Below are positions 1-64,000 of a stretch of DNA of 64,000 bases, one piece after another. Where the stretch lies: assembly GCA_963969365.1 (NCBI GenBank), contig OZ017763.1, positions 1,612,001 through 1,676,000 on the forward strand. The letters run 5' to 3'. Both the position numbers and the translations under genes were made by a program. The notes beneath the pieces were generated by a model. The model saw nothing but the letters and a program-made list of their open reading frames with translations, had not been told where the DNA came from and did not search any database. The stretch comes from Asterochloris sp. CNOR1 (Eukaryota > Chlorophyta > Trebouxiophyceae > Trebouxiales > Trebouxiaceae). Position 1 is the stretch's first letter. Each line of letters begins with the position of its first letter.

Positions 1-3000
1 TGCAGCCCCCAGCATTGAGAATATCATCCACAGATTTCCTCCAGAGCTCCCTCGCCTCCTGTGGCTGCAGCTGGAAGTCTTGCTGGTGTATGGCAGAGGA
101 GGCATTGCCCTCGTGCTGGTCCAGGCTGAGCAGCTCCACAGTGATGTTGCCTGCAGCCAGAGAGGGCACTGTGCTGCTGCATCTCTTATTCTGGACCTCA
201 GCTGACCGTGAGCGGCCTTATGGGGAAGTGAAAGGCAGCCACCTGCAGGCCAGGGACACTGCTCCAAGGGTGAAATAACTGCCAGGCCTCCCTTTTTGTG
301 AGCCAGCTGGAATACGGGCAGGTTGCTAGCTACAAGCCATGGGCCATGCAGCTGCTCATGGCCAGCAGTCATAGACCAAAGGGCTTGCTGCCATCTGGCC
401 TTCCAGGGTTGGTCTTGTCCAGGTCTGCTGACTTTCCATTCCTTGCGCACTGAGTTTGGGTCTTGTCCTGGTCTGCTTACTTTCCATTCCCACGCACTGA
501 GCTTCTTGAGACATGCCTGCCTCAGGACCGAAATTGCAATAAGGAGAGCACCTGGCCTCAGGCTGTACCTGTGTCAGGTATGCGCCAGTTGCTGGCAACC
601 TGGGCATGGGCTGAGCTCTCTGTGGGAGGCACAAGGCAAGACAAACTGTTGTAGCCTGGGACGAGCTTACCTGTGACGGGCTTGTTCAAGTCGCTGACCA
701 CCCAGACACTGACTGAGCTGTCTTCACGGTCCCAATAGGCAGAGACCAGGACTGGGGCAAAGATCCGCTTCAGGCTGTAGTGCAGCAGGCGCCAGTGACC
801 CCCAAAGTCCAGCCCGCTCCAGGATGCCCCCTGCAGCAAAGATGTGCAGCACTGGCTTGATGTGGGATGCCAAGCCATGCAACAAGCACCAGTGATGGCA
901 TCCAGAGTCCAGCCCGCTCCAGGGTGCCCTGCGCAGCAAGATTGTGCAGCTCTGGCATGATGGGGGATGCTAAGCCACGCAGCAGGCACCAGTGATGGCA
1001 TCCAAAGCCCAGCCTGCACAAGGATGTGCCCCTGCAGGACGGACAAACATCTCTGGCATGCAGAGAAGCTGGGCCAGGCAGCAGGCACCAGGGACGGCCC
1101 CAAGGTGCTCCACAATGTCCCTGCCAGCAACAACGTGCAGCTCTGGCTTGTTATGCCAGGCAGGGCGCCATGCATGGACACCAAAGTCCCATGAAGCCCC
1201 ATGCAGCACAAACAGCACAGCCAGGGTGGATGTTCAGTGTCAAAGCATCTGCTGTGAACACTCAGCTTGCTTCAACAAGGCCCCCTCTTGTGAAGCATAG
1301 CATAGCATTGGCCCCTGCGAGGAACACATGCCAGCCTTGTCCTGTAACGTGCAGATGGGCGGCTATCTGGTAGCCGCCCGCCAATAGTCGTGCAGCTGCT
1401 GGGAGGGAATGCACAACAGTGTTGGGGGTGTTGGCCACGTCTGAGTCCACCACCAACCGGCCAGATGTCGTTTAGCTGCCAGTAGAGGATGCCCATGGTC
1501 TGAACCTCCGGGACGCCTTTCAAGCGGCGCCAGTGCTCCAGCGCTGTATGATAGGTCACAGCCTGCTGCACTTGCGTCAGGTAGAGCCACAGTTGGAACA
1601 GCCTGCAGAGCAGCTAGGTCTGTCAGGCCATTTCTGAGACTATACCTGCAATGCACGTGAGTTACTCAGAGTCACAGCTGCACCAGCTTTGCAGGGCCAG
1701 TCACGGTGGTCACGGGCTTATGCTACTGAGTGCTGGCAGTTGTCAGGGCTGTGTCAGGTAGTGAACATGCCCAATGAGGTGACTAGCAAGAGCTAGCAGA
1801 ACAATCAATTGCTGGCTTGCCGGGGCAGAGAAGCGTGCAGTGGGAGGCACTTGCTATCAGCTGCACACCACAAGACGTCTGCTCAGGCTCCACGAGCAGC
1901 GGGTCTGCACCTACTCAGTTGATCATCCAGGCACTGCACATCTAGCACAACTGGTACTTGCTGCAACAGTATCCTGATGGCTGCACAGCTGTTGCTGAGT
2001 GCAGATGCGGGACGGGGCCCAAGCGCATGCCTGCTGTTGGCTGCTGCTGCTGCTCCGTTTGGGGCGCCAGCCCGTCACATGCTCGTGGAGTCACCACACA
2101 CACCTGGTCTGGTCAGTACCTGCCGACCCTGCCTGTGCAGGGGGCACCTTGAAGTGCATCTGAGCCTGCTGCAGCAGCTGCATGTTCCCCTCTGGGTGGC
2201 GCATCCTGCAGCGCGCAGCACACAGGAGTGATTGTTGCCATCCAGCAGGTATTGGCCTGCTGAAGACCTGCACGTCGCCCTTTGGGTGGCGCACCCTGCA
2301 CTGCACAGGAATGAGATTACAAGATGACCAGCATTGCATATTGGCTTGCAGGTGGATCACTCCGCGGTGCACACAGTCCAGCAGACGAGTGTCAACAGCT
2401 GCCAGGCACAGATGGTTGGGTGCTGGGCAGGTGGTAGCGTGCAGTTGACCAGCGCTGCTGCCACCAGGTCTTCTGGGGACAGAACATCAAGTAAGCTGTG
2501 CCCACCACATCTGCACCAGTACAAAGCCAGCGGCCAATATGTTTTGCTTTACCCTGGCAGGTCTGTCCTGGCAGACAGTCAGGCACCTGAGCTTGGCACC
2601 ATGGGTGGACTGCCAGCCAAGCCCACCCTTTCAGTCCCACCCAGCAGTGCGGCTGGCGCCGCCAGCAGAGTTCGCCCTCAACAGCATGTGCTGGTCGTAT
2701 GCTGCAGATGCAAGGCGCAGCGCCCACAGGCTGCAAGAGATATACCAATGGAGCAGATGCAAGTAAAGCGAAATGGTGCCAGTGGCAGCTGACCTGCTCA
2801 CAGTCAGGTTGCACTCCTGGTTCGTCCTGCCAGGCCACGCCCAACACCACTGCAGATCTGAATGCAAGGCCTGCCTGGTGGATCAGTGGCTACTTACACT
2901 GACTTGAATATAGTGGAAATGCTGGGACTCCCATCTCTGTCCTCCAGCTGGGCATCTCAAGCCTGGTATGTGCACCCCAAGATGTATCAGCTCCTCACCT

Positions 3001-6000
3001 GGAAAGCATCCTATGAGGCTGCCAGCTCCACTTTTCTGCTGCTGATTGACAAAGATTGCAGCAGCTTCAGCAGCAAGACAGCACCTACCACGTGGCTTGC
3101 TTTAGTGGCATCTGACAAGGCTAGTGTGGTTCCACTGTGGCTGACCTGAACTCCGTCATGTTGGACTCCCGGCTCCAGTCCTCTTGCTGGGTGACGCCCT
3201 GGTACACAAACCATGAGGGCAGGCTTTCATACCCAAACTCTGAGACAAAGCGCGGCTTGGGATAGGTGGCAGGGTCAAAGCCGTCCTTGTCGTAACTGTA
3301 GAAGTGGATGTCGCCATACTGCTTGCTCTGGCCATCACCCCACCTGCGACCACCAGAGACAGCTCAGAAGGCGCTGGGCAAGCCCATGCCCCTGGCACGC
3401 CTGCCCCTCAGTTCTGCTCTGGTCAGGGCTCCCACCTGCAGCAGAGGGGCGTCTGTAGGAGCAGTGTGGGAAGGGGTGGTGTCACACTGGGCTGATGCCA
3501 CTTTAATTGCTCTTGCCTACATTGTGGAGCAATGCAGGCGCTCCACAGTCTCTGGGAAAATTGAGCAACAGCACCTGACCCAGCTCCTTTACAACTCTTA
3601 TTTGTAGTGCAATAGGTGAGGATGTCACAATGGTATGCACTCCCTGAGCACTTGTGATGAAGGACTGCAAGGGAGAGGTGGGAGGCGTTCAGAGCGGCCA
3701 GCTGCGATGGGTGCCCTGACCACAACCAGGGATGTGGTCACTTGATAGGGATTTGCTACAGGCCACTTAGATCCATCTGCAGGTCTGCAATCGCCACCGC
3801 TGGCACCACTGCAGTCCGGAACAGCTGCTGGGCTTGTGGTTGAGCAGCTGCCTTGTCAGCACTTGACATGAAACAGATGCCTTCTCAGTATGTGGCTTCC
3901 CACAGGCTCACCTCTTGACCTGGAATGAATGCCTTTTTGGCATCTGGGTTTCCACAGGCTCACCTCTTGACATAGGGATTTTGGCTTATGAGCCCATTGG
4001 AGGGGCTGGAGTCCACGAAGATGAGCTGCGGGTTCACACCCGCCACTGCTGCCTCCACAGTGTTCAGAAACAGCTCCACATAATCAGCAATGTAGAGGCG
4101 TGGGTTGTCCACTGTGGGCTGGAACCAGTTCCCCATGGCAATCTCAATCTCGTTGTTTCCGCCCCAGATGACCACTGAGGGATGCCAGGAGGTGCGCCGC
4201 ACCTGCCACTGCACCTCCTGCTGTACCTACAGGGCAACTGACAAAGCGTGTTCAGCTGACCAGATTCGATGTCAGCCCTCATGCGCAGCCTGCAGCTGAG
4301 CAGGCCTCACCTCTGAGAGGAAAGCTTTGTCCCTCGGGTAGACAGAGCAGGCAAAGATGGCCTCCTGCCACACCAGCAGCCCAGCCTCGTCGCACAGGTC
4401 ATAGAACTGGCGAGGTGGGTAGATGCCGCCGCCCCAGACGCGAATCATGTTCATGTGGGCGGCCACAGCGCTGTTCACCAGGTCTGCATAGCGCTCAGGG
4501 GTAGCGCGCGTGGGCAGGATGTCGGCAGGGATCATGTTGGCACCTGCAGTGCAATGGTGACATGCCTCAACGTGGCGCTCTGGGGTGGCCCTGTATCGAT
4601 TGGGATCATGTTGGTACCTGCAGAGCAATGTTGGCAGCGCTGCTGAGACTTGCATGAGCAGGATGCCGGCGGGGTTCATGTTGGCACCTGCGAGCAGAGG
4701 GACCAGCCCGACAGTCAGACATGTGGCGGTGAGAGCCACATCAGTAAACTTGTAAATTACAACACGAGATGCGCAGAGCAGATATGCAGTCACTTGAAGC
4801 ACAAGGCGCCTTTGCTTCCTCGAGTTTGACTTGCTGAAACAACACTGCCAGCAGCCAGGCACGCAGGAAGCCTGGCACATATGCATCCCTGAATCACCCA
4901 CCTTTGGCAAAGACGGGCTGGCCGTTCACCGCAAAGTAGAAGAGCTGGCCCGTGTCCACAGGGTCCCGCCTCAGCTCAACATGCCGAAGGCCCACACGCC
5001 GGTGCAGCACTGTGCCGTGCACCTCGCCCCAGTCTGCCCCCGTGCCATGGCCCTCCCCGTCTTTCCTGCCAGGCTGAAGGATGGGGTGTTGGGCAACCCC
5101 GGCTGCTGGACATGGCTGCAGATGGGTTGCATTGCCACAGAGGGGTGTCACAGAGGTGGCTGGGTTAGTCTGGTTGCAACTGGGGGTGAAGGTGACTGTG
5201 AAGTCGTACAAAGGCTGCTCCCCATGGCCGTGCGGCCACCAGAGGTCATAGGGCGGCTCCAAAGGCATCTGCACGGCAGGAAAACCCAGGTGAGCGTCAG
5301 CACTGCTGGAAGCAGCATGTGGCCACCAGAGGTCGCGCAGGGGTGCCAGGGGCATCAGCATGCCAGGCAGGCTGAGGCATGCCCAAGCACAGCACCGCTG
5401 CGCACAGGGTGTGGGCGTGCAAGGTCATGAGCGGCACCAGGCAGATCTGCACAGCAGGAGATGTATAGAGATGCAGCACTGCTGCAGGCAGCCCCATGCC
5501 TGCTGCAGGATGCCGCTGGCGCCACACACAGCAGACCACCCCACGTGTGCACACAACTCAGCAAAGCTAGCTGCTGTGATCTTCCTTCCAGGCAGCTTGG
5601 TAGGGCAGGACACTCCCAAGATGAAGGCAACACCTGCACCTAGCTTTGCGGGAGACTGCATCATCCTGCAGTGCTCAGCCAGGAGGGATCTGCCGCAGGA
5701 ACTCGCAAAGTTCAAGCAACGGGCAGCTCCACATGATTGTTGCCCAGATGCCTCTCAGGCCACAGATGCATGCAGCTTGGCCTCATGCTGACCTGCCCTG
5801 TGCAATCCCCATCAGGCAAGAGAGTTCGCAGGCCCACATGCCTCTCAGACTACAGCTGACCTGCAGAGTGGCCACGCTCTGGCCAGCCCTGTGCAGGTGC
5901 ACGTGCTTCACAGCGCTCCACTCGGGGCGTGAGTCGCACGCCGCCCGCAGGCAGCCTGACTCGCCGGCGTGCGCTGCTTGCAGGACGGCGTCAATGCTGA

Positions 6001-8062
6001 CAGAGATCGAGGCGGCGCTGTGGTGGTGCTGGCGCACATTCAGCGCTGCAGGAGCAAGTACATCCATCGGCACACTGCTGGAGGCACCTTGGACGATAGC
6101 AAGTGTGACGAAACAGATCAAGTGCTGGGCTTGCATTGGAGTATGTTGGAGGCTGCAAGGCAAGCACATGTCCCATCAAGACTTGGCCAAGCAGGCTTGC
6201 ACAAGCAGCACTCAAGGTCACAACCCCCACAGGCAGCGCCAGCCATGGTCAGGTACTGCAAAGTTCAATATACCCTGGTCTACATGCACATTCCTTCGCA
6301 GTGGTGCTTGCGCTGCAGGACATGCTGCATGGTGGCATCAAGTGGTGTGATGCAGACAGCTGGCAGCAGGCTTCACAAGCATGCATGATTGCAGCCTTGA
6401 GACCCCTCGCAAACCCTGAGGCACCAGTCTGGGCCAAAGAAGGGCGCAAACCTGTCATGTGCGCTGCGCTGTAGGCCTTGAGCTGCACCCCACCATAGAT
6501 GCCCGAGGGAGCAAAGGCAGGCCCCCAGTCCCAACCAAAGTCTGACGCGGTCTTGCGCAGGAAGTTCCAATGGGGCAGCATGTGGTCCAACTGCAGGTGC
6601 ACACAGCAAAGTGGGCAGCAAGTTTGATCGCGAGGCCAGGCGGACGGGCTGGCCACTCACGCATGTGGCCCAGCTGCAGGGGCACACAGCAAGGTGGGCA
6701 GCAAGCTCAATTGCGAGGTCAGGCAGAGGGGCTGGCGCCTCGGCCATGTGGCCCAGCTGTAGCTGGCATGCAGCTCACCTCCATCGTGGGGACCTCATAG
6801 GGATAGGCCTCTGCACGCGTTCTAGCCTCCTGTGGCGCTGGGTGGATGGTGATGGAGATGGTGTTGCGGCCACTGGAGAGCAGCTTCTTGACTGGAAGCA
6901 CATGCTCCCTGCAGGTCAGCCCTTCTATCATTTCAATTGGCACGCAAGGTGCCTCATCTTGCTGACTTGTGAAGGAGCAGCTCAGAATTGCTCCTTGCAG
7001 GAAGCGAGCGGTGCTCAGGTGGTCCTGTGGAGCTGCCACGGCCTCATTGCTTACAAGTGGACTTGCCACATTCATATGTGCTGAGCTGCGCCCCGGCTGT
7101 GTGCATGCTGCCTGATGCATGGCACTTCACATCTACATCTGCTCAGCCAAACCAGTGGAACAGTGCTGCGCACCTATACCTCTGCCTGCAGCCGCTCAGC
7201 CAGGCCAGCTCATCCAGTCTGATCTGCTCAGGGGCGTCTCACCTGACCGCTGAGGAGCACGGCAGCAACCCTGTTCCTTTAGGGCCCACCTGCTTCCCAT
7301 TTGAGCAGCGTTACAGCACATGTTGAGGAGCCTTGCAGCAGTGACTGCACAAGGCCTGCTCACCTGGACGCACTGGTAGAGGTCTGCATGCCTCCTGCTC
7401 ACAGCAAGGTTTGCAACTGTGCAGATGCCTTAGAGCCCCATGACACAAATGGAGCTGCTCCCATGCTGTCCCCAACAGCATGGCAAGTACAGGACTGCTG
7501 CAGCCTCTCAAAACATCTGCCCACCTGAAGGCATTGCCGCAGCTCCCTGCGAGTTGCCCGTTGACGCTGATGTCCGCTACTGTGTCGATGCCTGTGAGAA
7601 CCATGTCGATGTGGGGATGCTCCAGCATGCTGGGAGGTACATCCAGGGTGCAGGAGAACTCCCAGTCCTCCTCGGCGGTCCACCTCAGGCTGTGCTCGTT
7701 GTACCTGAGACATCACAGCGCATCCGCTGGGGCTCAACAGGTGTGGAGGCATCTAGGCACCACCCGCAGGTACAAGGGACTGGCTCCAGTGGCACTCAGC
7801 ATGGCTACGGGTACTGCAGCCTGAGGGCTGGTGTGGTCATGACAGAGGCCGGGCAGCACCTGAACAGTGGATTGCCAATGTGACCTTGTTCCTGCAGGGC
7901 CTGCAAAGTGTACGTTGGCAGGGTCACTGGCATCTTCAGGCTGCCATTGGCATTGCAGAGCTGCCAATCTTCATCTGCCAGATCTTGGATCTCAAGGCTG
8001 CTGGCGATCCCCACCAATGGCATCGTGGCCATTAAGAGCCAGCAGCACACAGTACGACACAT
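1..8062 (-). CDS. Beta-mannosidase, glycoside hydrolase family 2 (3' end beyond window)
   Basis: Secreted or lysosomal/vacuolar-type enzyme that removes terminal beta-mannose from glycans. Exon 1 (8062-7860) starts at an ATG giving a signal peptide ([10 protein letters not shown]...), and exon 2 is 7704-7525 (sugar-binding domain). Later exon blocks lie near 6900-6770, 6570-6480 (FGWDWGPAF), 6060-5860, 5275-5200 ([16 protein letters not shown]), 5060-4915, 4545-4310 ([14 protein letters not shown]), 4215-3965, 3320-3150, 2220-2130, 1590-1460, 840-670 and 165-1. The acid/base site is visible as GGNNEIE, the nucleophile as FVSEFGYES, and the conserved [13 protein letters not shown] is intact. 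The last readable block is the C-terminal beta-sandwich, so only the end of the protein is missing. Several introns hold decayed copies of neighbouring exon edges. The start codon lies 109 bases after the stop of the PsbP-like gene on the same strand. Identity is very secure; exact exon ends are partly inferred. Confidence 0.93.
786..1185 (-). repeat. About four tandem copies of a beta-mannosidase exon 5' edge
   Basis: The functional acceptor and exon start (reading [13 protein letters not shown] on the minus strand) is at 794-836. Decayed copies lie at 891-936, 991-1037 and about 1086-1127, a period near 97 bases. Each keeps the GTCCAGCCCGCTCC-like core and a GCAG-like acceptor, and intron sequence between them is repeated as well. 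Confidence 0.85.
2183..2300 (-). repeat. Two tandem copies of a beta-mannosidase exon start
   Basis: The exon start coding for [10 protein letters not shown] (2183-2211) is repeated at 2273-2300, where the minus strand reads [10 protein letters not shown]. The period is about 90 bases. The copy lies in the upstream intron and runs out of similarity beyond the exon edge. Confidence 0.75.
3862..3985 (-). repeat. Three copies of a beta-mannosidase exon 3' edge with its donor
   Basis: On the minus strand the exon ends TATGTCAAGAG followed by GTGAGCCTGTGG. The segment TCAAGAGGTGAGCCTGTGG recurs with a period of about 52 bases (plus-strand units starting near 3862, 3914 and 3966), so the donor site itself is multiplied inside the downstream intron. 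Confidence 0.8.
4490..4692 (-). repeat. Three copies of the catalytic-domain exon start of beta-mannosidase
   Basis: The real exon start ([19 protein letters not shown] region, acceptor at 4544-4549) is echoed at about 4573-4623 and 4657-4691. All three keep the GTTCATGTTGG-like block beside a CCTGC acceptor. The copies lie in the upstream intron. Confidence 0.75.
5222..5462 (-). repeat. Three copies of the LWWPHG exon start of beta-mannosidase
   Basis: The functional exon start ([18 protein letters not shown]) lies near 5225-5276. A copy at about 5305-5365 still reads PLRDLWWPH on the minus strand, and a weaker one is at about 5424-5462 ([11 protein letters not shown]). Similarity starts at the acceptor and fades inside the exon. 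Confidence 0.75.
6578..6762 (-). repeat. Tandem copies of the HMLPHWNF exon start of beta-mannosidase
   Basis: Units begin at about 6578, 6661 and 6743 (period about 82). The plus strand shows GCATGTGGCCCAGCTGCAGG in each, which on the minus strand is the CTGCAG acceptor followed by the first exon codons. The 6578 unit is the functional one. Confidence 0.8.
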
Positions 8063-11286: not shown

Positions 11287-15626
<4,340 letters not shown>

Positions 15627-16125: not shown

Positions 16126-19100
16126 ATGGAGATGGCAATGGACGCGGCAAGCGACATAACGGCCTCAGCAAAACCTGTGCTTGACGACTGCCAGGGAGCA
16201 CCCGGGGGGTCTGGCTCATACCTCGGTCATGTGAGGCCGACATGGCAGCGGAATCTTCTGAGGTAACCCAGATCCTTGCTGTGAAGTGCTGACCAAGGTG
16301 CTCATGTGGTTTCCTGCAGGTGGGGCCTGGCATGGTCTTCCTGATCTGGGGCCTGTGGTGGGCCTGGAACGTGCTGAGGCAGCATGCCCAGGCCAAGGGC
16401 TCCCTTAAGCGGTATGCAGGCAATACGCGCAGCTGGTACAAGTTCCCATCCTTTGGTCTGTGGGGGGTCCAGTACCTGGAGATCCTTCTCAAGGTGTTTG
16501 GCGTGGCCTCCATGCTCTTCATGGAGCTACGAGGCGACCATGACCACTACCTGTGAGTGCGTGGGGTGACCTGTTGCATACGCTTGCGGTTACCCTGCTG
16601 CCCAGCCAGGGCCTCTTTCTGCTGTCTGACTATCCTGCCATAGCGCTGGGCATCATTCAGCCTGCTCTGTTGTTGTGGCCAGGCCACCTGACATCATCTT
16701 GCATATCTGACGTAAGCCTCCCCCCAGCGTGGTGCAAGTCATGTGGCCTGCCTCAGCCCTCTCGCTTTGTGCCTGCCAAGGTGCTCCACTGGTTGTCAGA
16801 ACAAGGTTCAGCACAATAATCACAGATCCCGGCTGAGATTTTCCTCCATGCCTCTGCAGATATCTGTTTTGTGCAGACGGCCGCTTCTCAGCGCCTCATC
16901 TTCACAATTGGCAGCATGCCGCCAGCTACCCAGGCGTTTTCACTAGTGGTGAGCATTGGAGCTTTGCTGGCAGCCTTAGAGGGGTCTTCCATGGATGCCC
17001 CTGCCAGGACGGTTGAGCCCCTGAACTGACGTTCATCTTTTCACAATGGCTGGCTGTCCATGTATTGGGCAGCGAGGGTGTGCTCATCATGCATTGCCAG
17101 CTCATGAGCAGCACGCAGCGCCACAGCGCAGGTATGCGGCCAGCTCCAGCAGGTTTTCTGGCACATGCAGCTTTACCTTCAACTTGGGACTTTGAAACAC
17201 CCTTGGAGGTGTGCCGCAGCTGTTTGAAGTCGACAAATACAGCAGCATCAGTATGGGTCGGTGCCTGCAGCCTGGCGGACGCGTTTGGCAACCGAGGTTG
17301 CCTGAAGAGTTCTGTGAGCATGGCAGAGCCCCTCAGCCCGCCACTGTGCGTGCTGACACCATTGGGAGCCAGCTCTAGGCGTCCCTGATAGTCACAGTCT
17401 CACACTTGAGTGGGGCTCTCCTAGGCCTGCAGGTGCATCACCGTCTTCAGACCACTTTCTGAGCTGGGCATTGCGTGCTTCCTCAGGGCCCCAGTGCAAG
17501 CATGCTGCAATTACATGGATGGAGCTTGCCTGCAGGCCTGGGGCGTGCACAGCGTTGCATGTCGCTCCAGCGTCCAAAGTGCAAGCATGCCACAGCAAAA
17601 ACTCAGATGGGTCCATGCCTGCAGGCCTTGTGGACGCGCTGGGCATCTTTGTGACATTGCCAATGGGCACGGAGCAGATCTTCCTGTCCATGGCATTTGG
17701 ACTGGAGGGCTTCCTGATGCTGCTGCACAAGAAGCATGAGCCCGTGGACCTCATAGCGCACGAGCTGCTAGGCTACACCATGGTGGCAGGTGACCACATC
17801 CTGTAGACAGCCTGTGGCGGAGTGCAGACATCCTGCCGCTGAGTCTCAGCAGTCTTGTGAAACTTTGGACTGGCAAGCTGTAGCTGTTGCATGAGGCATG
17901 CAAATGTTAAGGTGGCTACTGTATCAGTGAGTATGAGGTGGCAGGCAGCTTGTGTGGAGCCGTAGTCTGCATTCAAAGGCAAGGGGCAAACAGCTCCAGG
18001 TGGCAGCTGCTGTACTGGGTGCAGTCTGCTGGCAGGTGCTACAGTAGCTTTAGAGGTGCACGGTGATGGCTGCCCAGCCCCGGATGGTTGCTTTCAAGCC
18101 TTGGCATGCTGGAGATGTGCAGGCAGCTACCTTGATGACTCCACAGTGCTGCTGGGGTACAGCAGTGTGGCCCCCTGCTTCTGGCCTTGGGCCATTCTGC
18201 CTCTTGTGGCCACCTGCCAATGGAGTGACATAGCACACAGTGGCTTGCCATGGTGTCTTGCTTTCTCTGGCTTGGCAAGGGTGCAGGCAGCGCTGGACAA
18301 AGCAGACAGGCTCTCTGGAGCCAGCAGCTGCCGCCTGAGCAGCAATTGTGTCTCTTTTTGGACCGCATGAGTCGCAGCTTGCTGGGCCCCTGCATGTGAC
18401 CTGGCGCATAGCGGGCTGGCTGCATAGGAAGCCAGCAGCTTTGACCGAGTTCCATGAAATCTCAGACCAGCTAGCCAGCAGGCAGAAGTTGCATGCTGTC
18501 GCTGGGGTCCTGCAGAACTCGAGACACTGCAGCGGTGCCTCTGCCCTGAGGATGACAGCTTTTTGGAAATCACGCTGAGCTGCCTCTGCTGCCACTTTAG
18601 GGGCACTCTTCATCATCCTCGAAGTTCGCAGCCCTAAGAGCTTCTGGGCGTCCTGCGGGCGGTGTCTGGCGACGATACAGCAGGGCATCTGGCTTTGCAT
18701 GATTGGCCAGATGAAACACAGCGGTAAGGGCAACACAGGTGAGACGGCCTCCGTCTCACCTGCACGGCCAGCCGGTTGCTGCTCTTGTGCAAAAGCCAAT
18801 CAGCTGGTGCCAGGCCAAATTGATGTCCGTGCAGCACCATACCAACTAAGTTGGTCGTCCCTCAGCAGCAGCAGCCAGAGGTGTGCACTCAGTCTGCACT
18901 CATCATAGGGGTATAGGCAGGGATCGTTGTGGATATGGGGCAATGCTGTGTCAGAGTCAAGGTGCACAGGCCCTGGTACGCATGAACCAGCGTTTCGAAT
19001 TGTCTAGGTGGCAAACGCTTCCAATCTGTCAGTACTTGATGGCTTTTTCAGCAGAACTTTGCATCTCATGTCAGCATCCCCTGCTCTGGCAAGCTCAGCA

Positions 19101-21284
19101 GAGCGCAGCTTAGCCTGCTGCTGCTGGTGTCTGGGAGCTGGTGTGTTACGTAGAGGACCACGCAGCTGGCCGTGCCTGAGGCATTGCTAGCCTGAGACAT
19201 TGATACAGCCTTAAGCATAACACAGCCCCTGACTTTGCTACAGGGTCCATCACCTGGGAGACGGCTGGTACTACAGGCATGGGGCCTGCCATGTTTGTGC
19301 CCGTGGTCTACGCCATGTTCGTGCTTGCCACAGCTGTCTTTCTACTCCTATGTGAGTGGCCGTCTGTGGCATGCACAATTCTGTCATGTTGCTCTGTTGA
19401 TGTCTTGCATCTGCTCACCGTGACTGTCCCTGTCCCTGACTGAGTGCCCCAGCAGTGGCTGCCTGCCTGTTCCTATGTGCGTGGGCCCTAAGTGGCTGTC
19501 TGCGGCATGTACAATTCTGTCATCTTGCTTTGTTGATGTGCTCACCGTGACTGGCCCTGTCCCTGAATGAGTGCCCCAGCAGTGCCTGCCTGCGGCATGC
19601 CTGCTGCTGTCAGTGGTCAGGCTTCTGCTTGTTGTCACAGGCCTGCTTGCACGGGGACTGAAGAATCCAGGCTGCCTGTGGCATGCCTGCTACTGCCTCA
19701 GCCCCGGCCTCTGAAAACTTCTGGCTCCTGCTCACTCCAACAGTACTTTCTTCATGTGAGCACGTGGGCTGGAGCATTGGGTCGAGTGTGGCATGCCTGC
19801 AAATTGCTCCGTCCTGCCTGCAGAGTAAGTGTCTCGACTTTGCTGGAAATGCATTGGCTGCAGAGCTGCAAAACCCTGATGCCGCAATGCTGCTATTCAC
19901 GTGGTACAGCTTGGGGTGGCAGGAAGTTGTCAGCAGAGCTGACTCACCTGGAGCTCAATGCTGCACTCTGACTCTGCCCCCTTTCCCTGCAGTGCTCCTG
20001 GTGCTGTAAACAATGGAGATCAGGCACGCAGCTTGCATTTACATGCAAGCAGCGCACCTAGCTCAAGTCAAATGCCTGGCCTGACTGGTCTCTCTGCTCA
20101 CCCTGCAGTGCACGTGGTGCTCCAAACGGTGGAGAACAGGCGGGCAGCCCTGGAGCGGGTGTATGCCTCCCTGCCCAGCATCCAGAGCGATGATGTTCAG
20201 CTGCACCGTACGCTGTCCACAGCCGCGCTGCAGCAGCATGATGCCAAGCCGGCATTTTCACTGGACGGGGATTCGGCGCAGGAGCACTCCACCAACTCTG
20301 ATGCAGGTGGGTTCCTTGTTTCAATTGACATCTGGCTGGTCAGTGCTTGACAATGGTGGCCGCCAGGCTGCCAGCTTTGTGGGCCAGCCTGGTGGGTATG
20401 TGCAGCATTCTATTATGAGGTAGGTGCATGCAAGGACCAATGAGCCCTGAGGTATGTGGGCCTGCCTAGGTGTGGGTCAGAGTGGTGCAGGTGGGGCAGC
20501 CCATTGCTGCCCGGAAGGTGGCTGGCAAGTTTATTATTGGAGGCAGATAGCCCTGCCTCAGGGGATGCAGCACAGGCTTCTGCATGTTGCCTGCCTGGGT
20601 GGTGGCTGTGTTTGCTTCCAGAGCTGTGCCACCTCAGCTGTGCTGGCTGCTGAGGTGGAGGGGCCTGATGGCTCTGCTGGTGGTGGTGGCATGCAGTAGA
20701 GTCTGCGTGCACACCTGGCGCCAAGCGGGTCTGCAGGTGGCCATGCTTGGCCACAGCGGTCTGGGGCTGTATGTGCGAAACCATTCTTGCTTGAGGGAGT
20801 GCTGGGGACTCAGTTTTGCTGTAGAGCATCATTGACTGCCACCTCCTACCTGCAGCAGGCACCCCTCCTAAAAGATTTGATCAGACAGCTGTGCTGCTCC
20901 TTAGGGCTTGATTGGCCAGATTACTTGCAGGCATCATCCCCCTGATTACAACAGGGCTTTTCCAACCCAAAAAACCCTTCCCTTGCTGCACAGCAGGTAG
21001 CCCTAACGGTTGCAGTCGCACTAATCTTTAGGCTGTGCTCCTCTGACAGGGGCAGTGACAGGCAGCATCATGTCGCAGGAGGCATGCATGCAGGCCCAGC
21101 ACTGAAGGGAACACTGGGTGACTTGCACCTGCATTGCTGCGCTGCAGGGGCTTCATCGACAGGCAGCATCGAGCTGCAAAAGGCAGGAGCAGGGCGGGCG
21201 CCATCCCCGGACCCTCATCGAGCCCTTTGGAAGACCATGTTACAGCCCAGCTCCAAGAAGGAGCGGGCTGGTCACATTGTGTGA
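16126..21284 (+). CDS. TMEM45/DUF716-family multi-pass membrane protein
   Basis: Multi-spanning membrane protein of the TMEM45 (DUF716) family, whose biochemical role is unknown. Exons are 16126-16230 (MEMAMDAASDI..., ending YLGH), 16320-16554 (VGPGMVFLIWGLWWAWNVL, the family's first helix and HxxPG-like motif), about 16860-16945 (LHNWQHAASYPGVF), 17612-17788 (TEQIFLSMAFGLEGFLMLLH), about 19248-19351 (AMFVPVVYAMFVLATAVFLL), 20109-20307 (a hydrophilic tail with SLPSIQSDDVQLHR) and 21147-21284 (ending KKERAGHIV, stop). Splice phases of the first four exons join cleanly in frame. The exons at 19.2 and 20.1 kb are assigned by hydropathy and splice sites, so they are less certain. At least four introns hold decayed copies of adjacent exon edges. 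Confidence 0.85.
17262..17640 (+). repeat. Copies of the TMEM45 fourth-exon start
   Basis: The functional acceptor and exon start (CTGCAGGCCTTGTGGACGCG) at about 17607 is echoed at about 17264-17300 (CTGCAGCCTGGCGGACGCG) and about 17526-17560 (CTGCAGGCCTGGGGCGTGC). Both copies sit in the upstream intron. Confidence 0.75.
19338..19620 (+). repeat. Duplicated TMEM45 exon 3' edge and donor
   Basis: The exon end and donor near 19345-19360 (CTCCTATGTGAGTGGCC), with about 120 bases of following intron, is repeated from about 19468 (TTCCTATGTGCGTGGGCC). Long shared blocks include ACAATTCTGTCAT and CCCTGTCCCTGA. The period is about 130-139 bases. Confidence 0.85.
19985..20148 (+). repeat. Duplicated acceptor and start of the TMEM45 20.1-kb exon
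   Basis: The segment 19985-20032 matches 20101-20148 at 39 of 48 positions by hand count (period 116), starting at CCCTGCAG in both. The upstream copy carries an in-frame TAA, so the downstream one is taken as functional. Confidence 0.85.
21047..21190 (+). repeat. Duplicated start of the last TMEM45 exon
   Basis: CAGGGGCAGTGACAGGCAGC at 21047 mirrors CAGGGGCTTCATCGACAGGC at 21144, and both continue with a GCATC and GCAGG-rich match for about 40 bases. The copy lies upstream of the functional last exon. Confidence 0.7.
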
Positions 21285-28110: not shown

Positions 28111-28402
28111 CACACTGCAGACATTGCTCAGAACCATCCGCTAGGGTAACGACAACCAGTTGATCCTGCAGCAAGCACAGTATGATCAGTGCTTAGCAGC
28201 ATTCAACAGGGCAAAGACTGCCAGTGCAATGGCACCTGCGGGCAGCAGCAGACACATTGCAGACGTTGCTCAGAAGCATCCACCAGGTCACCATGACGTC
28301 TACCATTGCAATCAAACCTGCAGCTGGCACGGTGCAGTCAGTGCTCAGCAGCATTCAGCAGGGCAACAACTGCAATGGCACTTGCGCGCAGCAGCAGACC
28401 CG
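28055..28402 (-). repeat. Three tandem copies of a membrane-protein exon start
   Basis: Units at about 28055-28149, 28195-28287 and 28345-28402 (period about 140-150) share the acceptor side and first codons of the exon. On the minus strand they read AVFALVDAAYS, AVFALLNAAKH and AVVALLNAAEH. The first two agree at about 90 percent of 83 bases by hand count. The lowest-coordinate unit is the functional one. Confidence 0.88.
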
Positions 28403-42187: not shown

Positions 42188-45100
42188 TCAATAGCCGCCC
42201 TGCAAATCTTTCATGAAGTTTTGAGCCATGTTGGTCAGCTTCTTGCTGGCTCCTGAAGCATACTGCTTCAGCTGCTGCACGTCCTGTCTGGCCTGCAGTG
42301 CCCAAAAGTCAAATGGTCAGGGACCACCAGAGGATCTCTGAGGCCAGCCAGCCATGCCATTCTCTGCCCAACTTCATAAGAAGACAGTGAACTGCTACTC
42401 TGCAGCTTGAGCCTATAAGGCTTGCTTGCGTTGAAAGACATAAAATCTCCTGCCCTGAGCTTCAAGCAGGGCAAGAGTGCCACGCCCAGGTCCAAGCTAT
42501 TGCAGGGCTGACTTAGGTGTTTCTGAGCTGGACAAAGGTGTTCCGAGTCTGTAATGCTTCACATCAGGGCAAGGCTGCCCGCTCCAGCTTCACGGCACTG
42601 CCTGACCTGTAGGGACAATTTGTTGACGAGATCAGACGCATCCAAGTCTCCTGGCCGCGAGGAGCTGGGGCCGGACTCGTCCCTGTCATAGTAGTCTGCT
42701 GACGAAATGGAGGTGGCCCCCTGCAAAGCGTTCCAGGCCTTCAATAGCAGCAGGAAAGTCTGCATGCAGCACTGCAGGTGCACAGTGAGCCTGCCAACCC
42801 CAGCAGCGCAGCAATGGCCGGCAGCAGGAGTCCACCTGGGACCATTCAACAGCCTTGTGTATTTTGCACTCACAAGTGCTGTGGTTGATGCGCAGCAAAT
42901 GGCTGTGTCTTGTGTTACCCCTGATCTTTTCTGTCCTGATTCTGTTCTTATATCTGTCCCCTTGGTCAGTAACTCCCACACAGGGAGGGCCGGTGAGCCC
43001 AGGACACACAACACCAGAACCTCAGCATCCCGACCTAGCAGCAGCTCGGACACGACCAGCCCAGAGCCTTCATGCAGCCACTGACCCACAACAACCTTAC
43101 TTCAAACATGAGAGTTGGGCTCAATGTGTTGTTGTTGCCACCCTACGCGCCCCACATCAGTCACCACCCACATGGAGCTGTGAGAGCCACAACTGCTCAG
43201 GAGCACCTGGAGTGCCCTGGTGCTTTGGCTGACTGTGGTGCCGCTCAATGAGACGTGCCCCACCTGGAATTTTGAGAGCCGCGCAGTGCGCTCATAGTCG
43301 TTGTTCCCGGCACCACCTTCCTCATTGAACATGGAGGATGATATGCTCTTGGCATTGCCAAAGCGCCTGCGAGCCTCGTCTGCCTCAGCAGCCTGCTGAG
43401 CCGCGGCTGCTTCTGCAGCTGCCTTGCCCTTTATGCTGGGCCCTCTGCAGCACAGGCAACCGACAAGTATGAACAAACCAGACGTGGAGACGCTGCACCA
43501 GATGTGGGCTGTGCTTTAGCAGACAACCTGGGGGCTCGCCTCAGCAGCCTGCTGAGCCGCAGCTGCTTCTGCAGCTGCCTTGCCCTTCATGCTGGGCCCT
43601 CTGCAGCAGGGGCAACCAGCAAGTATGAATAAACCACACATGGAGCTGCCCTTGACGTCGGCTGGGCTTCAGCATACAGGCTGGGAAATCTGCGCTTTTG
43701 AAACGCCTGGCACTGCCTGCCGGAGCATGGTGCCTGCCTCAGCATGGTGCCTGCAGAGGCAGCCTTACCCTGGCATGCTGGCCCCTTTGCAGCATGACGG
43801 CAACAAGACTCACACCTTATGCCTGAAGATGGGGCCCCTTGCCCTTCAGGAAGCCCCTGTGCGCAAGGCCCAGACAGCAAGCCATGAAAGAACTGCACAT
43901 GAGGTTGCCTGGCCTTGCTCAAGTCGGCTGGGCTGCGACTGCCTCTGCAACCGCCTTGCCCTTGTTGACAAGCTCCTCTGCATCCGTGAGGACGCCAGAG
44001 CAACCAGCTTTCTCCATGCAGTGACCAGCATCAGCTGTCTGCTGGGCGCTGGCACGCCTCCTCGACGGTCTTGCAAGCCGCTGAGAGACAAAGCTGGACC
44101 CCAGGGCAATGTGCCAAGCGGCAATGAGCGCACCTGCTTCTGATTGCCACTCATCCCATTGTGCCCAAGACTCCAGCAAAGCCCAACCACCATCAATGCT
44201 GTTCCTTTCATACCTCTGACGATTGCTGGAGAGCAGTCGATGTAACACAGGGCTGTGTGCCGGTCTGTGCCATTGGCGACCATGAAGGCAGGCTGCCACC
44301 ACTGCTGCCATTCCTGCCCCTCATCAAGCAGGCAAAATGCAAAACAGCCCAAGTCGGCTACGCTCAGTGGCCCACCTTCTGCCACCTGTGCCGCCCTCAG
44401 CCTTGCTGCTCCCACCCCCTAGGGGGTCGCTGAAGAAGTCGCTAGACCCCAGCGCAATGTGCCCATCCTTGCCCCGGGCCACCCCAGGCGCCTTCACTGC
44501 CTCGTCCTCCTCAGCCAGCATATTGTAGGCAAAGCGGCTGCTGCCTGTGGTGCTGGCAGCAGGGGCATCCTTCTCCTCTGGCTGCAGGCACAGAGCAGAC
44601 AACAACCTCACAGATACTCTGCTGTGAGATGCAGTGCACAGCACACTGTAGACAAGGCGGCTGCTGCCTGTGATGCTGGCTGCGGGGGCATTCTTCTCGT
44701 CTGACTGCAAGGTCGGGAAGGTGCACCATGTGAGAGGAGGTAATATTAGCACCTTGCCTTCTTTTAAATGCAAGTTAGGCATGGCACCTATGCAGCGCCC
44801 TTGTTATGATTGCAAAGCTGTGAGCAGGATCAATTTGTGCCAGTGGTGCTGGCCACCACTCAAACATCCACCACTGAAAGGGCAGGGGACGTCACCCAGG
44901 TTTTACAGCAGGTGCGTCCCCTGCAACCTGCCCAAGAAGACTGCAAGCTGCCTTTCAATTTGCTGTGCAGGTGAACAGTCAACACGCATGTGAACAGCCA
45001 ACACGCAGGAGGGTATCGATGCGGGCCTCTCAGGCAGGGGCGGACACTTGCCGAGAGGCCTGTTGGTGAGCCACAGCCAGAGTGCTGCTCACCACGCCAA

Positions 45101-52300: not shown

Positions 52301-55300
52301 TGGTGGAGAGCGACCTGTCCAAGATCTATCCCAATCTGGTCAAAGAGGCCGTCATCAGCGTGATCGAGCTGCAGGACCACGTACTCAGCACATGTGAGGA
52401 GAGCATTGATGCTCAGCAAGCCTCTTTCTGCATGTTTAGGGGATGCGCATGGGCATGTGCATGGCTGCTACGCTGCCAACTGCCTATCTCATCAAGCTGG
52501 TCCTGGACTTTATGATAAGCGAGTTGTGGGGTTCATTTACAAACATCTGCACCTCCTATGTCAACCTGGGTCCTGAAAAGTCTTCTGTGCCTGCCCTTGT
52601 GCCTCCCAATTGCACTTTGCAGTGCAGGGGACATGTTGATCTCAACCGTTACTGCCGAGATGCCTCAGACTTATGCGACCTTACAGCAGAAAGCCTTGCT
52701 GGCTGCCTGCAGACGACAGGCGCATCAGTGAGTACACCCGCAAGATCTTCACCCGCAACCGCATCCAGCTGGTGCTCAACACCAAAGTCAAGTCTGTGCG
52801 GCGCAATGCCGTCAGCGTGGTGGACAACTCTGGGAACGAGCGGGAAATTGAGTTTGGGGCCTGCGTGTGGGCTACAGGGGTGGCCATGCACCCTGTCATC
52901 AAGCAGGCAAGCTGAGCTGCGAGCGCGCTGGGCCTGAGAGGCGCCCTTGCTCCCTGAGATCAGCCTAGCTCCCTGATTGCGACGCTGTTGTTGGGTAGTC
53001 ATGACGCCATCATGAGACAGCTGAGCACGAGCAGCTGTGAGGTGTTGAGCATGCTGCACTTCCCATTCTGCGGCCTGTATAAGCACTTTTGCTGGCCATG
53101 TACACGCCTTGTCAAGCAGGTCAGCTTATAGCATCTCGGCCCTCTGCATACTGCTTCATGCAGGCTTGATTTCAAGTCACCGGGGGATACCAGCTGTGCT
53201 CTTGCCCGTCAGTCCACTGCAAAGCTCCTGCAGCAGAGCTCGAGATGTCTCGTCGGGATCCTTCTGACACCTGAGCAGCTTTCAAGGCTGTAGCAGTCCT
53301 GGCAGCTTGAATGCTCACCAGGTTGGCTGCACTGTCATTGAGTCGGTTGCGGGTCCTGCATGAGATTCTCAGCTCTGCCTAAGGCCTGATGTTGGATGCA
53401 CAGCTTTAGGTCCGGAAGGGATGCTGAGAGGGCGCATACGGCTTGCAGTGCATGTTACCTGGAATTACACTGCGTCCATGCCTGCCCATTGTCGCAGGGG
53501 CAGCTATTGCAGAGCGCGCTCACCTCTTCGCCACAACAGCAAGTCAATTGCAGCCATGTCCGCAAGATCTGTCAAAGCCTCACCTTGCCTTGTTTTGCTG
53601 CCTGCAGCTCTGGGTGGAGCCGGGTGAGGGTCTCAAGACCTTGCTCAGGCAGCTTCTTTGTCTGGTGGCTCAGCAGCTGCAGCCAACTGTTGCTGAGTCC
53701 TTCTTTTCTCACTCTGCCTGCAGCTGCAGCAGAAGCTGCCTGAGGGTGCACAGACCCACTTCAGGAGCATCATCACGGACGAGTTCCTGCGCGTCAAGGG
53801 CAGCGAGGGCTCGATCTATGCTTTTGGCGATGCCGCAACCATCGAGCAGGTGTGGACTGCTGACTGCACAGGACCTGAGGGCACCTGTGAGACCCTCCCA
53901 GCGAAGAGGTGCAGTGGGTGCAGCAGCAGGGGCGCTGTGCTGCTGCAGCGTCTGCTGTGGTCCATTTCCCAGACCAAGCGTGGATGCACAGGCTGGGCCA
54001 GGGTCTCTTCAGCGTGTCCGGCAGCCAGGCCGTGATCTGTGGGTCCTCTGTGGTGCATGGGCAGGCAGCACACCACTCCCTCTCGGGGCCAAGGCTAGCA
54101 GCTGCTCTTCGGGGCCACCGCACTGGCCTGCTGCCTCCATGAGTGCGTCCACATGCTATGCAAGTCTTCCCCCCTGCCAGGCTGTCTTCAGGTACAGTTT
54201 CAAGCAGAGCTGAACACAATCCGCTGCCCACGCTGCTCACAAGCCTCACCCTTGATCCACAAGGCCTATCTGGACCAGGAAGGCGTGCTGCCGAAGTCCT
54301 GCCTCGCTACTCATTTTGGACACTTGCAGGCCACATTGCTGAGCCGGGGCCTACCCTGTGATTGCTGCCTACTTGCTGCACCGCCTGACTCACCCCTCAT
54401 GCTGTGCAGCCCAAGTCGCTGGAGCACGCAGACGACCTGTTCCACAAGGCCGACCTGAACCAGGACGGTAGGCTGAGGCTGGAGGAGCTGCGCAACCTGC
54501 TGAGGGAGGCCAGCAAGGAGTACAGCCACCTGGAGGAGCATTCCCGCTTCCTGGATGCGTGAGCACTGCTTTGGCTGCTGTCTTGTTGAATCACTGGATG
54601 CTCCCCTCGCACGTGCTGGACACCCAGCCCGTGGACGGCGAAGGTACGTGCCGGCAAGAAGCACAGCGACCTGGGGCAGCAGTCAGGGAAGCTCTGGTGG
54701 AGCTGGTGAAGTGCGCACTGCAGACTCTGGGCACCTGCCCACCCTGCCGCCGCCTTGTCCATGCTCCTGCTTGCAGGAAGTGCTTGCAGGAAGTACGGCC
54801 ACCCTGCTGCCGACTTGTCCACGCTCCTGCCCGCAGGTAGTACGGCCACCTTATTGTCGACTTGTCCATGCTCCTGCCCGCAGAAAATACGGCCAGAGAC
54901 GTTTCGGTGGCCTGGTACGGAGCACGCTGCAGGGGGGCCAGACTGCTGCCCAGCCCAAGAGCCCTGTCTCTGAGCTGACAGACAAGACCGAGCTCACGCG
55001 GGAGCAGTTTGAGGGCCTGCTGGGCCAGATCGACAAGGGCCTGCGGGCGCTGCCAGCCACAGCACAGGTGGGCGCTGAGATGAGCAGCTCCTTGGGAAGG
55101 CACTCTGCAAGGCTCCTCGGGTTGTTGTAGTCCTGCTGGCGGCAGCCTGGGCAGCGCAACTTGTGGGTCCTGACAATGCGCCTGGTCATTGTTGGCGCCA
55201 GGCTAGACTGCCCTTAGCCTGGAAGCGCTGCCTGTCACAATGTAAGTAAAGATGCTGTCACGATCTGCTTGTGGATGCTTGATCGGAGGAAGGGGGACTC

Positions 55301-57647: not shown

Positions 57648-60600
57648 TCACAGGGCTTGCCGCCGCCTGAGGAGCAGGTGTCCAAAGCGGGCGGCGCCTG
57701 CACTAGAACCCCGAAACTCATGCGGACTGTGCCCGGTGCTCTCTCTATACTGTGTCACGATGCGTTGCACAGCTGCTTCTGCTTCGGTAGTGGCCTCCCC
57801 CAGCATGCACACTGTCCCTGCATGCAGCAGGCATGGTGGTGAAGCTGCAACGAAAAATTATCTGCACGGCCCAGGCCGTGACAACAACACAGAAGCCAGC
57901 ACAATGCGGCCATGGGCGCAGCCTTCAGGCAGCAGGTAGTCATGGGCCAGCCGGGCCTACTCAGTATTGGGACCACCAGTTTTGCATCATGCCTTCAGAG
58001 TTAATGGCATTAGAGCAACCCCCTGTGGCTGCCAGACAGCAGGCACTTGCCTCCTGAGCCTCCGCCAGTGATCTTGGCTCCAAACAGGACAGGCTGCTTG
58101 CCAGTGGCCAGCGCAGCCGCCTGCTCTGCTCGCACCAGCGCCACCAGGCGGTCGGTGCCCTCGCTGCCCAGGCCGCACCTTGAGTAGCTGGCATGGCTCT
58201 GCAGGGCAGAAGGTGTGGTCTGTTTCCAGGTTTGGCTGCTGTGAGCCTCATGGCTCAGGCAAAGAACAGAGTTGTTCAGAGGGCAGGGGGGTGTGATGGA
58301 TTTTTTACTACTGCTATGCCAGCCAGCACTGTGCACCTGTGATGCAGGCTCTGCCGTTCTACAACATCCAGAGAAGTGCAAGGTGCCACTGTGATCCCAG
58401 GGGACAGCTGCACCCCTCAAGGTTGTTCGCACTCAGTGCACCTGTCTGAGCTGGGGCCGTGCCGGCCGACCGCTGAGGCGGCCTCTGCGTGCAGGTGTGA
58501 CTCGGCGCACCTGATACATGAGCTCCCCAAGGTTGGCAACACAGTCAGGGCCATCCAGGGGGCCCTGGAGCATCTGCTGGAACAGGCGCACGCGGAAGTT
58601 CTCGTGGATGGGGTGGGCTGTGGGCAGCCGTACTGCATAGGTCACCTCTGGCAGGACCTGCGGGGCAGCCATGGCTTCATCCGTTTTATGTGCCACCATC
58701 ACAGGCGCACGTGATCACGGAAGAAAACAACCCCTGGCTTGGGTTATTTATTCTGAAAAGGTAAGAAGCAAACATCAGAAGACAAGGTGCATGTTCTCAA
58801 GGGGCACTGTCAGCAAGCCAGGCTTTGGGCTAAGAGAGGGACGTGGAGCCCAGTGGCAGTGCAAACAGGTGCCCTCAACGCTGGGGATGTTCTAGCCACA
58901 GACAACCTACCTCTGTAACTGTGTCATAGTGGCTGCTATAGCTGTGCAGAAAGTCGCTGCCTAGCACGGCCTCTGGTAGCCGGCCTTCATAGAACTGGGC
59001 AAAGGACCCCGGCAGGATGTTTGTCAGGTAGCCCCCACCTGCAGGCACTCTCCTTGATGAAGCCTGTCTGGAAGCGACAACTCACAGCAGTCTTTGTGCT
59101 GCCTGACAAGGCTGCAATCCCAATGCATGACCGGCATAGGGAGGCTTGACCAACAAGCTGCTGAGCTGCAGATGGGATGCTATGCATGCCAGCTGCCAGC
59201 AGTCTCCCATGAGATCCAAGCTAAGGCTTGAACCCATCCGCTCACACCTCACACACTTTGCACTTTGTAGCACATGTGACAAAACGGCAGCACTTCAATA
59301 ACTTGGCAGTGAGCTGCAACCATATTTGCCAACTCACCCAATGGCGTTGGTGACTCAGCAATGGAGCTGAGCCGCCGAGGATGCAATCGTGGGGCCTCAC
59401 TGCCCAAGCGCTGCAGCCTTCTGGCCTCCTCGCTGAGCATGCGCAAGCCCATGAAGGCTCCCGTGCGCACAGAGCCGTAGTCGTTGCCCCCCACGCTGTG
59501 GCGGATGCCTGAAGAGTGCCCAAAGAACACAGCGTTGCTCAGATGTGCCGACAGTCAGCTCAACTGGAACCAGGACAATATTGAGGACGGCTGGAGCAGC
59601 TAAAATCAGGTTGGTGAGGGCAGGCAGCCTCAGTGCTCCCCACAGCCTGGGACCACCCTGCATTTACGAGGGCAAGAAGGGTGGTCAAAGGGTTGGCGCC
59701 TGTTGGGCTCCACAGAGCTGAAGGAGCCACCGATGCTCTCCCCTTCTCTGTGCATGCTTGAGTCAGTAACCCCTGAAGGCGCATCTCACAGCTTCGAGTG
59801 CCATAGATGTCCATTGGCCCCACACCTTCCGCTAGTTTGACAGATTCTAGAGCAGCTGGTGCTGTGAGGTGTCAGGTGGAGTAGAGAGTTGACTGAACCT
59901 CAGGGTGCGAGCCGGCAACGACCATGGAGTACCTGTGCCACAGCCCTCACAGCACCTTTTGCTTCCCTGCCCGCCTGAATCCGGGCGCCACCGCTAGATG
60001 TGCCCCAGGATCACCACTGACGGCTCCTCTCTTGCCCATGGCCTCCACAACAGCCTTTACAGAAGATGCTTGCTCCCCACCCCACCTGAGTCCAAGCCCC
60101 AGAGCCGCAGGTGCCCTGGAATGACCACTGGTGGTTCCACTTCTGCCGGCTGACAGATCATGGCCATGAGCGCCCCCTCCTCCCCCAGCGCAGCCGCCAT
60201 CTGGTCCATCACCCCACACGGAGCTCCCACCACACTATTCTCGACCTGCAGGGAAGGGTATGTTGTTGATGATAATATCTCCAGCACATGCCTCACTGCT
60301 TCAGCCGTGCACCACATCAGCCTTCTTTGCAGAGATAGAATGGTAGGCACGCGATGAGAACCTCTGCAGGTTGCAAGTTGGTGTGGCTATGAAGGCTTAG
60401 CAAGTGAGCTTGGCGGGAGAGCAGGACCGGAATTTCAGGCGGCGTTCCATCCTCAATGGTGGCAGCCAGCAGCTAAGAATCTGCCTGAGCCAAGATAACG
60501 CAACAGGGCCGCCACGTCCATGGCAAGCGCTCTGTCGTGGCACACAGGGCATTGGCCATTGCTTGTCATCGCAGAGGCTGCAAACTGCAGGTCAAGGTCC

Positions 60601-63600: not shown

Positions 63601-64000
63601 AGTGGGCTCCCTGCAGCAGGATTGGGGTTACAGCTTGATACAGGTCCACCGGAGTGGCCACTGACACCACCATCCAGCTGAGCGGTAGAAGATGTTTGCT
63701 GAATAGGCTTGCACAGCGGTGTGGTTGCCACAGCCAGCAAAAGGGTTTTCCTGCAGCACTCTTGCAGGCCGCAATCCACTTCGATGAGGTATAGTCAAGG
63801 TCAATTTGCAAGAACCCCGGCAGCTGCCCTGCCAGGCCTTTCCCACAGCCAGCCTTGCCAAGGTTGTGATACATATCACACTGCTTTGCCCTCAAGGAAG
63901 GCCCTGCCTGAGAGGCAGCCTGCTGCTTTGGGCAAGCAGGGTTCATGCACGCTGTGCAACCACCTGTAATGGGGCTTCATGGTGGCAGCCTTCTCCAGGA
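57648..64000 (-). CDS. ARA1: L-arabinokinase (GHMP kinase), 5' end beyond window
   Basis: Phosphorylates free L-arabinose to L-arabinose-1-phosphate for sugar-nucleotide salvage. The readable protein begins inside the N-terminal glycosyltransferase-like part ([10 protein letters not shown] at 64000-63970; [14 protein letters not shown] near 63450; [14 protein letters not shown] near 63080). The galactokinase-like part has motif 1 [18 protein letters not shown] (near 62200), [24 protein letters not shown], motif 2 [13 protein letters not shown] (near 61060), [20 protein letters not shown] (60240-60160), [19 protein letters not shown] (59506-59440), [19 protein letters not shown] and motif 3 [11 protein letters not shown] (near 58060). 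The last exon (about 57770-57648) codes for [20 protein letters not shown] and ends RRRQAL at a TGA in 57648-57650. All three GHMP motifs are intact. The joint N-terminal blocks distinguish it from plain galactokinase. Confidence 0.93.
59978..60165 (-). repeat. Duplicated L-arabinokinase exon 3' edge
   Basis: The exon end reading [16 protein letters not shown] with its donor (about 60088-60165) is echoed at about 59978-60042 in the downstream intron. Shared blocks include GATCACCACTG/AATGACCACTGG and the GACTCAG or GATTCAG exon end. Period about 108. Confidence 0.75.

Follow-up and report, generated by a model that had tools for sequence, protein, structure and literature searches.

In the 64-kb window of Asterochloris sp. 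CNOR1 (the whole stretch of DNA presented here), a first-pass annotation had described introns holding decayed direct copies of the neighbouring exon's edge, each with its splice site. This raises the questions: Are these copies products of tandem duplication, how common are they across the genome, and is the duplication directed to exon borders or does it affect introns everywhere?

We analyzed a sample of 244 kb, composed of the window and 18 ten-kb stretches from contigs C1-C18 of the source genome (56.4 Mb in 21 contigs). Exon-intron models were self-trained with exon-length and stricter splice priors, and are thus predictions trained on the same 244 kb that was analysed. They comprise 78 predicted genes, none with an internal stop. 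The donor consensus in these models is close to CAG/GTGAGC; the acceptor consensus is strongly TGCAG, and the next base is G in 69%. GC replaces GT at about 9% of the modelled donors in the sample.

Ten of the 15 window proteins were scanned, and nine of these matched Pfam families. At two of the borders concerned, homology to solved structures is unbroken. The aspartic protease exon continues the homology to prophytepsin (1qdm_A) across the border at 15465, and in the beta-mannosidase gene the homology to 6ddt_A is continuous across the border at about 4543, where FAK runs directly into GANMIPAD. The beta-mannosidase gene model had wrongly run through two intron copies, which means that model errors can hide copies. 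Elsewhere in the window, a universal stress protein model (Pfam Usp) is followed by short models (29609-31806), and the model at 31084-31806 looks like a related, possibly incomplete universal stress protein copy. The region 40001-42000 has the lowest GC in 2-kb steps (0.522) and no modelled exons.

Border copies against controls

In the first self-comparison of the window, 61 ungapped segment pairs with a score of at least 20 were found at offsets of 20-420, and none at this score in three distant offset ranges. Local repeats were present in 15 of the 18 random ten-kb stretches too, with 101 pairs in total. At the control offsets these stretches gave 5 pairs (500-900), 7 pairs (1000-1400, all in stretch L013) and 2 pairs (3000-3400), and the window, run alongside them, gave one pair at 500-900. 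Splice-site-like sequence was seen by eye inside several TRF arrays of the window. A separate array at 8978-9102 consists of 3.6 copies of a 34-bp unit, three of which carry the donor-like AGGTGAGC on the plus strand; it sits in an intron of a minus-strand gene model, opposite to the strand of its AGGTGAGC.

For the main border test, both neighbouring introns of each exon were aligned with the exon and 25 nt of flank on either side. Introns shorter than 120 bp were left out, so that 299 of 343 introns were used, giving 299 upstream and 299 downstream sides. At a score of at least 50 the own neighbouring intron was matched on 52 of 598 sides, against 3 of 598 with shuffled introns, 5 of 598 with inverted introns and 10 of 2011 with non-adjacent introns of the same gene. 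There were 32 upstream and 20 downstream matches, where foreign introns gave 0.75 and 1.05. The window contributed 16 of 94 upstream and 8 of 94 downstream sides, and the other 18 stretches 16 of 205 and 12 of 205. The acceptor lies within every one of the 32 upstream matches, and the donor within 15 of the 20 downstream ones. The copies thus lie close to their source and in the same orientation, as border-spanning tandem duplication predicts. A match at this score occurs in 47 of the 299 introns, so that among the longer introns of this alga about one in six holds a decayed copy of its own exon border.

Most of what the first-pass annotation had said of the distribution was borne out. Tandem duplication of the adjacent exon-intron border accounts for the copies, and they recur in the majority of the stretches taken from around the genome. 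The annotation had counted copies in at least nine genes, and border-spanning copies at a score of at least 50 are present in 9 of the 15 window gene models. Its range of one to four copies per border also holds, with a maximum of four at window position 830 and at position 7093 of stretch L008. The acceptor side is in the majority as claimed, with 32 copies against 15 at donors at a score of at least 50 (binomial P = 0.019; 16 against 5 in the window alone). Of the thirteen acceptor places it had listed, nine are strong (0.8, 2.2, 4.5, 15.0, 20.0, 23.4, 28.1, 43.5 and 44.6 kb), those at 5.2, 17.3 and 53.6 kb are weak, and that at 46.9 kb, with a score of 30, is at background level. All five donor places (3.9, 19.3, 33.1, 37.4 and 60.0 kb) are supported. 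Matches at 3.9, 4.5, 19.3, 46.9 and 53.6 kb were judged by the foreign-intron control levels of the main border test. The copies in the window are collected in Table 1.

Table 1. Copies of exon borders in introns of the window. Entries marked "new" were absent from the first-pass list; (d) marks a distance rather than a period.
Feature	Position	Strand	Exon	Period (bp)	Score	Remarks
Acceptor-side array	781..1155	-	671-830	~100		four copies of exon start
Best copy in 781..1155 array	878-955				87	identity 0.78; intron part 0.82 identical
Acceptor-side copy	2255..2308	-	2133-2205	90	63	copy of exon start
Two acceptor-side copies	4585-4636, 4652-4728	-	beta-mannosidase exon start		65, 55	real acceptor ~4543
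Acceptor-side copy	6661..6698	-	6452-6590	83	60	new; identity 0.89; intron part 0.81 identical
Acceptor-side copy	15304..15387	+	15465-15626 (aspartic protease)	138	91	AG changed to GA
Acceptor-side copy	19972..20032	+	20109-20306	116	62	
Acceptor-side copy	23552..23627	+	23685-23788	115	74	
Acceptor-side copy	23869..23918	+	23998-24085	112	53	
Acceptor-side copy	28183..28260	-	27993-28093	142	110	two weaker copies further upstream
Acceptor-side copy	33644..33772	+	33849-34163	183	65	new; identity 0.64 (low)
Acceptor-side match	34630..34688	+	34873-35037	235 (d)	53	new; highest of 20 controls 42; no significant similarity in intron part
Acceptor-side copy	37133..37228	+	37262-37378	107	68	new; exon has copies on both sides
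Acceptor-side copy	43501..43625	-	43264-43444	156	157	among best preserved, 92% over 108 bp
Acceptor-side copy	44639..44709	-	44376-44581	123		exon part 0.85 identical; intron part dissimilar
Acceptor-side copy	54812..54848	+	54884-55067	47	58	new; identity 0.89
Donor-side match	2774..2842	-	3146-3343	352 (d)	54	new; best of 20 controls 31; intron part not significantly similar
Donor-side copy	3893..3926	-	3964-4226	52	47	TRF array 3862-3973
Donor-side copy	5748..5804	-	5861-6045	91	61	new
Donor-side copy	19428..19539	+	19244-19351		89	
Donor-side copy	33088..33161	+	32870-33061	77	95	identity 0.82
Donor-side copy	37472..37530	+	37262-37378	138	78	identity 0.83
Donor-side copy	59959..60036	-	60086-60245	111	60	
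Weak acceptor-side match	5303..5459	-	4902-5268		52	best of 20 controls 45
Weak acceptor-side match	17248..17290	+	17625-17789	355 (d)	50	best of 20 controls 45
Weak acceptor-side match	53588..53656	+	53724-53849		42	

Could the copies belong to introners or to another dispersed family, as the annotation had hinted by mentioning introners in green algae? Introners have been reported mainly from fast-evolving lineages, green algae among them (PMC9860276). However, the foreign-intron and non-adjacent controls are near zero. Three copies, including 28183..28260 and 43501..43625, were also searched in the whole genome and matched only their own locus, although the reach of this search was limited, since one of the three missed even the neighbouring exon edge. 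We give this explanation practically no credence, and the link to introners was not upheld.

The duplicated unit and its decay

The structure of the unit was described from a list of cases with a score of at least 44 that span the border, weaker or non-spanning matches being left out. Periods in this list range from 47 to 531 bp, with medians of 123 for acceptors and 121 for donors. The unit joins some 50 nt of exon to 57-64 nt of intron (57 nt for acceptors). The intron part reached significant similarity (p<=0.05) in 24 of the 39 acceptor and 10 of the 23 donor cases that could be tested, and in the best-resolved set (score of at least 60, period up to 160) in 14 of 17 acceptors and 6 of 8 donors. 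Among all testable cases it was no better than random (p>0.2) in 10 of the 39 acceptors and 8 of the 23 donors, and case 44581 is a clear exception to a contiguous tandem unit. These counts indicate that many of the copies, including most of the clearest, are contiguous tandem duplications across the splice site, though not demonstrably so for each copy individually.

The same counts bear on the idea that the copies are former coding repeats of a longer exon that turned intronic. In Drosophila, duplicated exon sequence has been described as turning into intron (PMC2891723). However, in the best-resolved set most units contain intron beyond the splice site, which implies that the intron predates the duplication. 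A third-position excess of mismatches is also absent: mismatches between exon and copy are about equal over the three codon positions (0.223, 0.199 and 0.230). We therefore hold a coding origin to be highly improbable. An indel or an in-frame stop is present in 34 of 47 copies, and a bias of the period to multiples of three was not clearly seen (15, 10 and 7 for acceptors; 4, 4 and 7 for donors). The outer copy behaves as neutral sequence, with no coding constraint.

Is the copy nearest to the exon the best preserved, as would be expected if new copies arise repeatedly at the border? This had been claimed for several sets and is true of several, but it is not general and the gradient is weak. 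The nearest copy has the top score in 14 of 25 arrays where 10.3 would be expected (P = 0.096), namely in 10 of 16 acceptor arrays (6.1 expected, P = 0.037) and 4 of 9 donor arrays (4.2 expected); outer copies were counted here from a score of 34 upwards, so some of them are chance matches.

The claim that the copies lengthen introns agrees with the data. Introns with a copy have a median length of 570 bp against 313.5 bp for the others (n = 47 and 252, P = 1.5e-7), and together they account for 22% of the sequence in introns of 120 bp or more. When the period of the best copy is subtracted (44 introns), the median of 387 bp still exceeds 313.5 bp, which suggests that further, older copies or an effect of length itself remain. 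Internal repeats occur in 51% of introns of at least 600 bp and in 4% of those of 300-400 bp.

Two arrays in the other stretches were noted beside these cases. In L012 (6184-7000) a 387-bp unit with about 81% identity is duplicated and spans both acceptor and donor, which is perhaps a whole-exon duplication. In L013 (545-748) a 68-bp unit occurs in three almost identical copies, all of which end near TTGCAGGT. The latter was considered as a case of intron gain and rejected: the modelled intron 608-742 spans two of the units and by eye is probably mis-modelled, so that a mis-modelled border array is probably the better reading.

Placement of the duplications and choice of splice sites

If tandem duplication is this common, then we can ask: Does it prefer exon borders, or are border copies merely the part of a general process that stays visible? 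We think it probable that recurrent tandem duplication acts without direction throughout the introns, and that border copies stand out because they lie beside a conserved exon partner. On this account short DNA segments, commonly of 80-140 bp, would be tandemly duplicated in introns again and again. Where a unit fell wholly within an intron, both copies would decay and soon become unrecognisable. Where it straddled a border, the exon-adjacent copy would retain its coding and splicing role, and the outer copy would be spliced out with the intron and drift freely. With the exon partner held constant by selection, border copies would remain recognisable longest, and since each event adds one unit, the introns with copies would be long. 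Fill-in and end joining at staggered breaks may be the source, or replication slippage.

The opposing reading is that 3' splice regions are preferred, either through a mutational hotspot or through repeated copying of the exon edge, as the annotation's picture of new copies arising at the exon border implied. Several results point in this direction. Repeats cover 30 of 360 acceptor edges, where circular shifting gives 17.0 ± 3.7 and at most 28 in 400 shifts. Acceptor copies relative to introns with intron-only repeats give 32/40 = 0.80, about twice the 0.26-0.41 of uniform-placement simulations, which assume one event per intron, log-normal periods of about 110 bp and simple indels. Better-conserved TRF arrays with a period of at least 40 span a junction in 10 of 11 cases (5.2 expected). 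The acceptor to donor ratio of 32:15 and the gradient in acceptor arrays also speak for this reading. However, donor edges are not enriched (18 of 357 against 16.9 by circular shift), and the donor ratio of 0.375 falls within the simulated 0.26-0.39. With exons masked, so that intron-intron similarity alone was counted, no rise of repeat coverage towards either intron edge was found. The 75 TRF arrays obtained at lax settings do not favour junctions overall, with 9 at acceptors (7.9 expected) and 8 at donors (7.8 expected); those with a period of at least 40 lie at junctions in 16 of 27 cases against 11.8 expected (P = 0.07), and those with a period below 40 in 4 of 48 against 7.5.

The evidence on border-specific duplication is mixed, in its favour at acceptors and against it at donors and in the flat intron-only coverage. 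Part of any junction excess is to be expected since the exon partners are frozen, and for the same reason we favour undirected duplication, which leaves the acceptor excess unexplained. This excess could come from the purging of donor-side events together with simulations that overrate interior repeats. Preference for 3' splice regions seems to us unlikely. Counted against undirected duplication are the acceptor excess over uniform placement, the 10 of 11 better-conserved arrays at junctions, the dissimilar intron parts of some cases, the residual length of 387 bp, and the self-trained, predicted nature of the models.

Whichever way the events are placed, border-spanning ones would persist only where splicing still works. 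A CTSAC motif, with its A most often 20-29 nt upstream of the exon, is likely the branch point. Intron parts shorter than 29 nt are absent from the 23 well-resolved acceptor units; simulation puts 18-23% of units in that range (probability roughly 0.01 or less). Short donor units do occur, with 24 and 25 nt of intron among nine units. The minimum of 29 nt in acceptor units is enough for the branch point. This suggests that acceptor duplications without a branch point were purged, which would explain why short acceptor units are absent. A viable acceptor unit would then have to bring the branch point as well as the AG, and the exon-proximal site is presumably the one spliced.

The annotation had proposed that the copies may supply reserve splice sites. 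If they served as alternative or reserve sites, or as decoys under selection, their splice signals should be maintained, and at first sight many are good. In scores that take the best position within 3 nt and so favour the copies, 22 of 32 acceptor copies lie above the 5th percentile of functional acceptors, a level reached by 14.5% of intron-internal AGs, and 10 of 32 outscore the functional site. Eight of the 32, if used, would stay in frame with no stop before the exon, and among donor copies 8 of 15 score like functional donors and 3 of 15 better. However, the AG survives in 21 of the 32 acceptor copies, near the value of roughly 0.8 squared that the identity of the flanking sequence would give, with no sign of maintenance or purging. 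Donor copies retain their dinucleotide in 12 of 15 cases, somewhat above the flanking identity, though the cases are few. Conservation of the splice sites above their surroundings was not found among the 32 acceptor copies, and codon positions, indels and stops, and periods give no clear signal of function either. The AG is kept at about the rate that neutral decay would give, which lends no support to selection for reserve splice sites, and we regard the idea as very unlikely.

Because 22 of the 32 outer copies look like good acceptors yet are apparently skipped, the arrays form a natural experiment on splice-site choice. A bolder version, which we consider rather unlikely, is that introns grow mainly by duplicating complete 3' splice units at a true acceptor hotspot and leave behind age-graded, ignored acceptors. 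If true, the unit would combine the branch point and AG with some 50 nt of exon, and the spliceosome would pick the exon-proximal site.

Comparison with known systems

Small within-gene duplications that include intronic and exonic parts are reportedly frequent (Gao and Lynch, 2009). What was measured here in the alga is a bias towards acceptors, a minimum of 29 nt of intron in acceptor units, and border copies over a range of decay.

For the origin of such units, the fill-in of break ends that produces small tandem duplications is a plausible mechanism (PMC8355091); that work, by its headings, deals with human and mouse cells and not with algae. In the AGGT model and in the example of ATP2A1, both cited by PMC4974935, tandem duplication likewise supplies splice sites. 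However, the AGGT model duplicates exon sequence and yields a new intron. The AGGT signature, in which the intron ends duplicate the opposite exon edges, was found in 2 of 342 introns at a score of at least 50 (controls 0.0) and in 5 of 342 at a score of at least 40 (controls 0.5). One of the two strongest is the L013 array, probably a mis-modelled border array as described above. Intron gain by this route as a general pattern was therefore rejected as rare.

The closest likeness is the RdRp gene of potato (PMC4974935). There, one tandem duplication crossed an intron-exon boundary, and the unit, as in the alga, joined the end of an intron to the start of the next exon. It carried a putative branch site, a polypyrimidine tract and the 3' splice site. 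In potato a new intron resulted from this single event, because a donor within the former exon segment became active; in the alga there are tens of cases in 244 kb, most of which appear to lengthen an existing intron, with copies that decay. In the open-licence literature we found no description of such arrays of border copies as a widespread feature of algal introns. It is the frequency of border-spanning copies, not the type of event, that looks new. Few intron changes have a traceable source, and the border copies offer direct evidence of intron lengthening over a range of decay.
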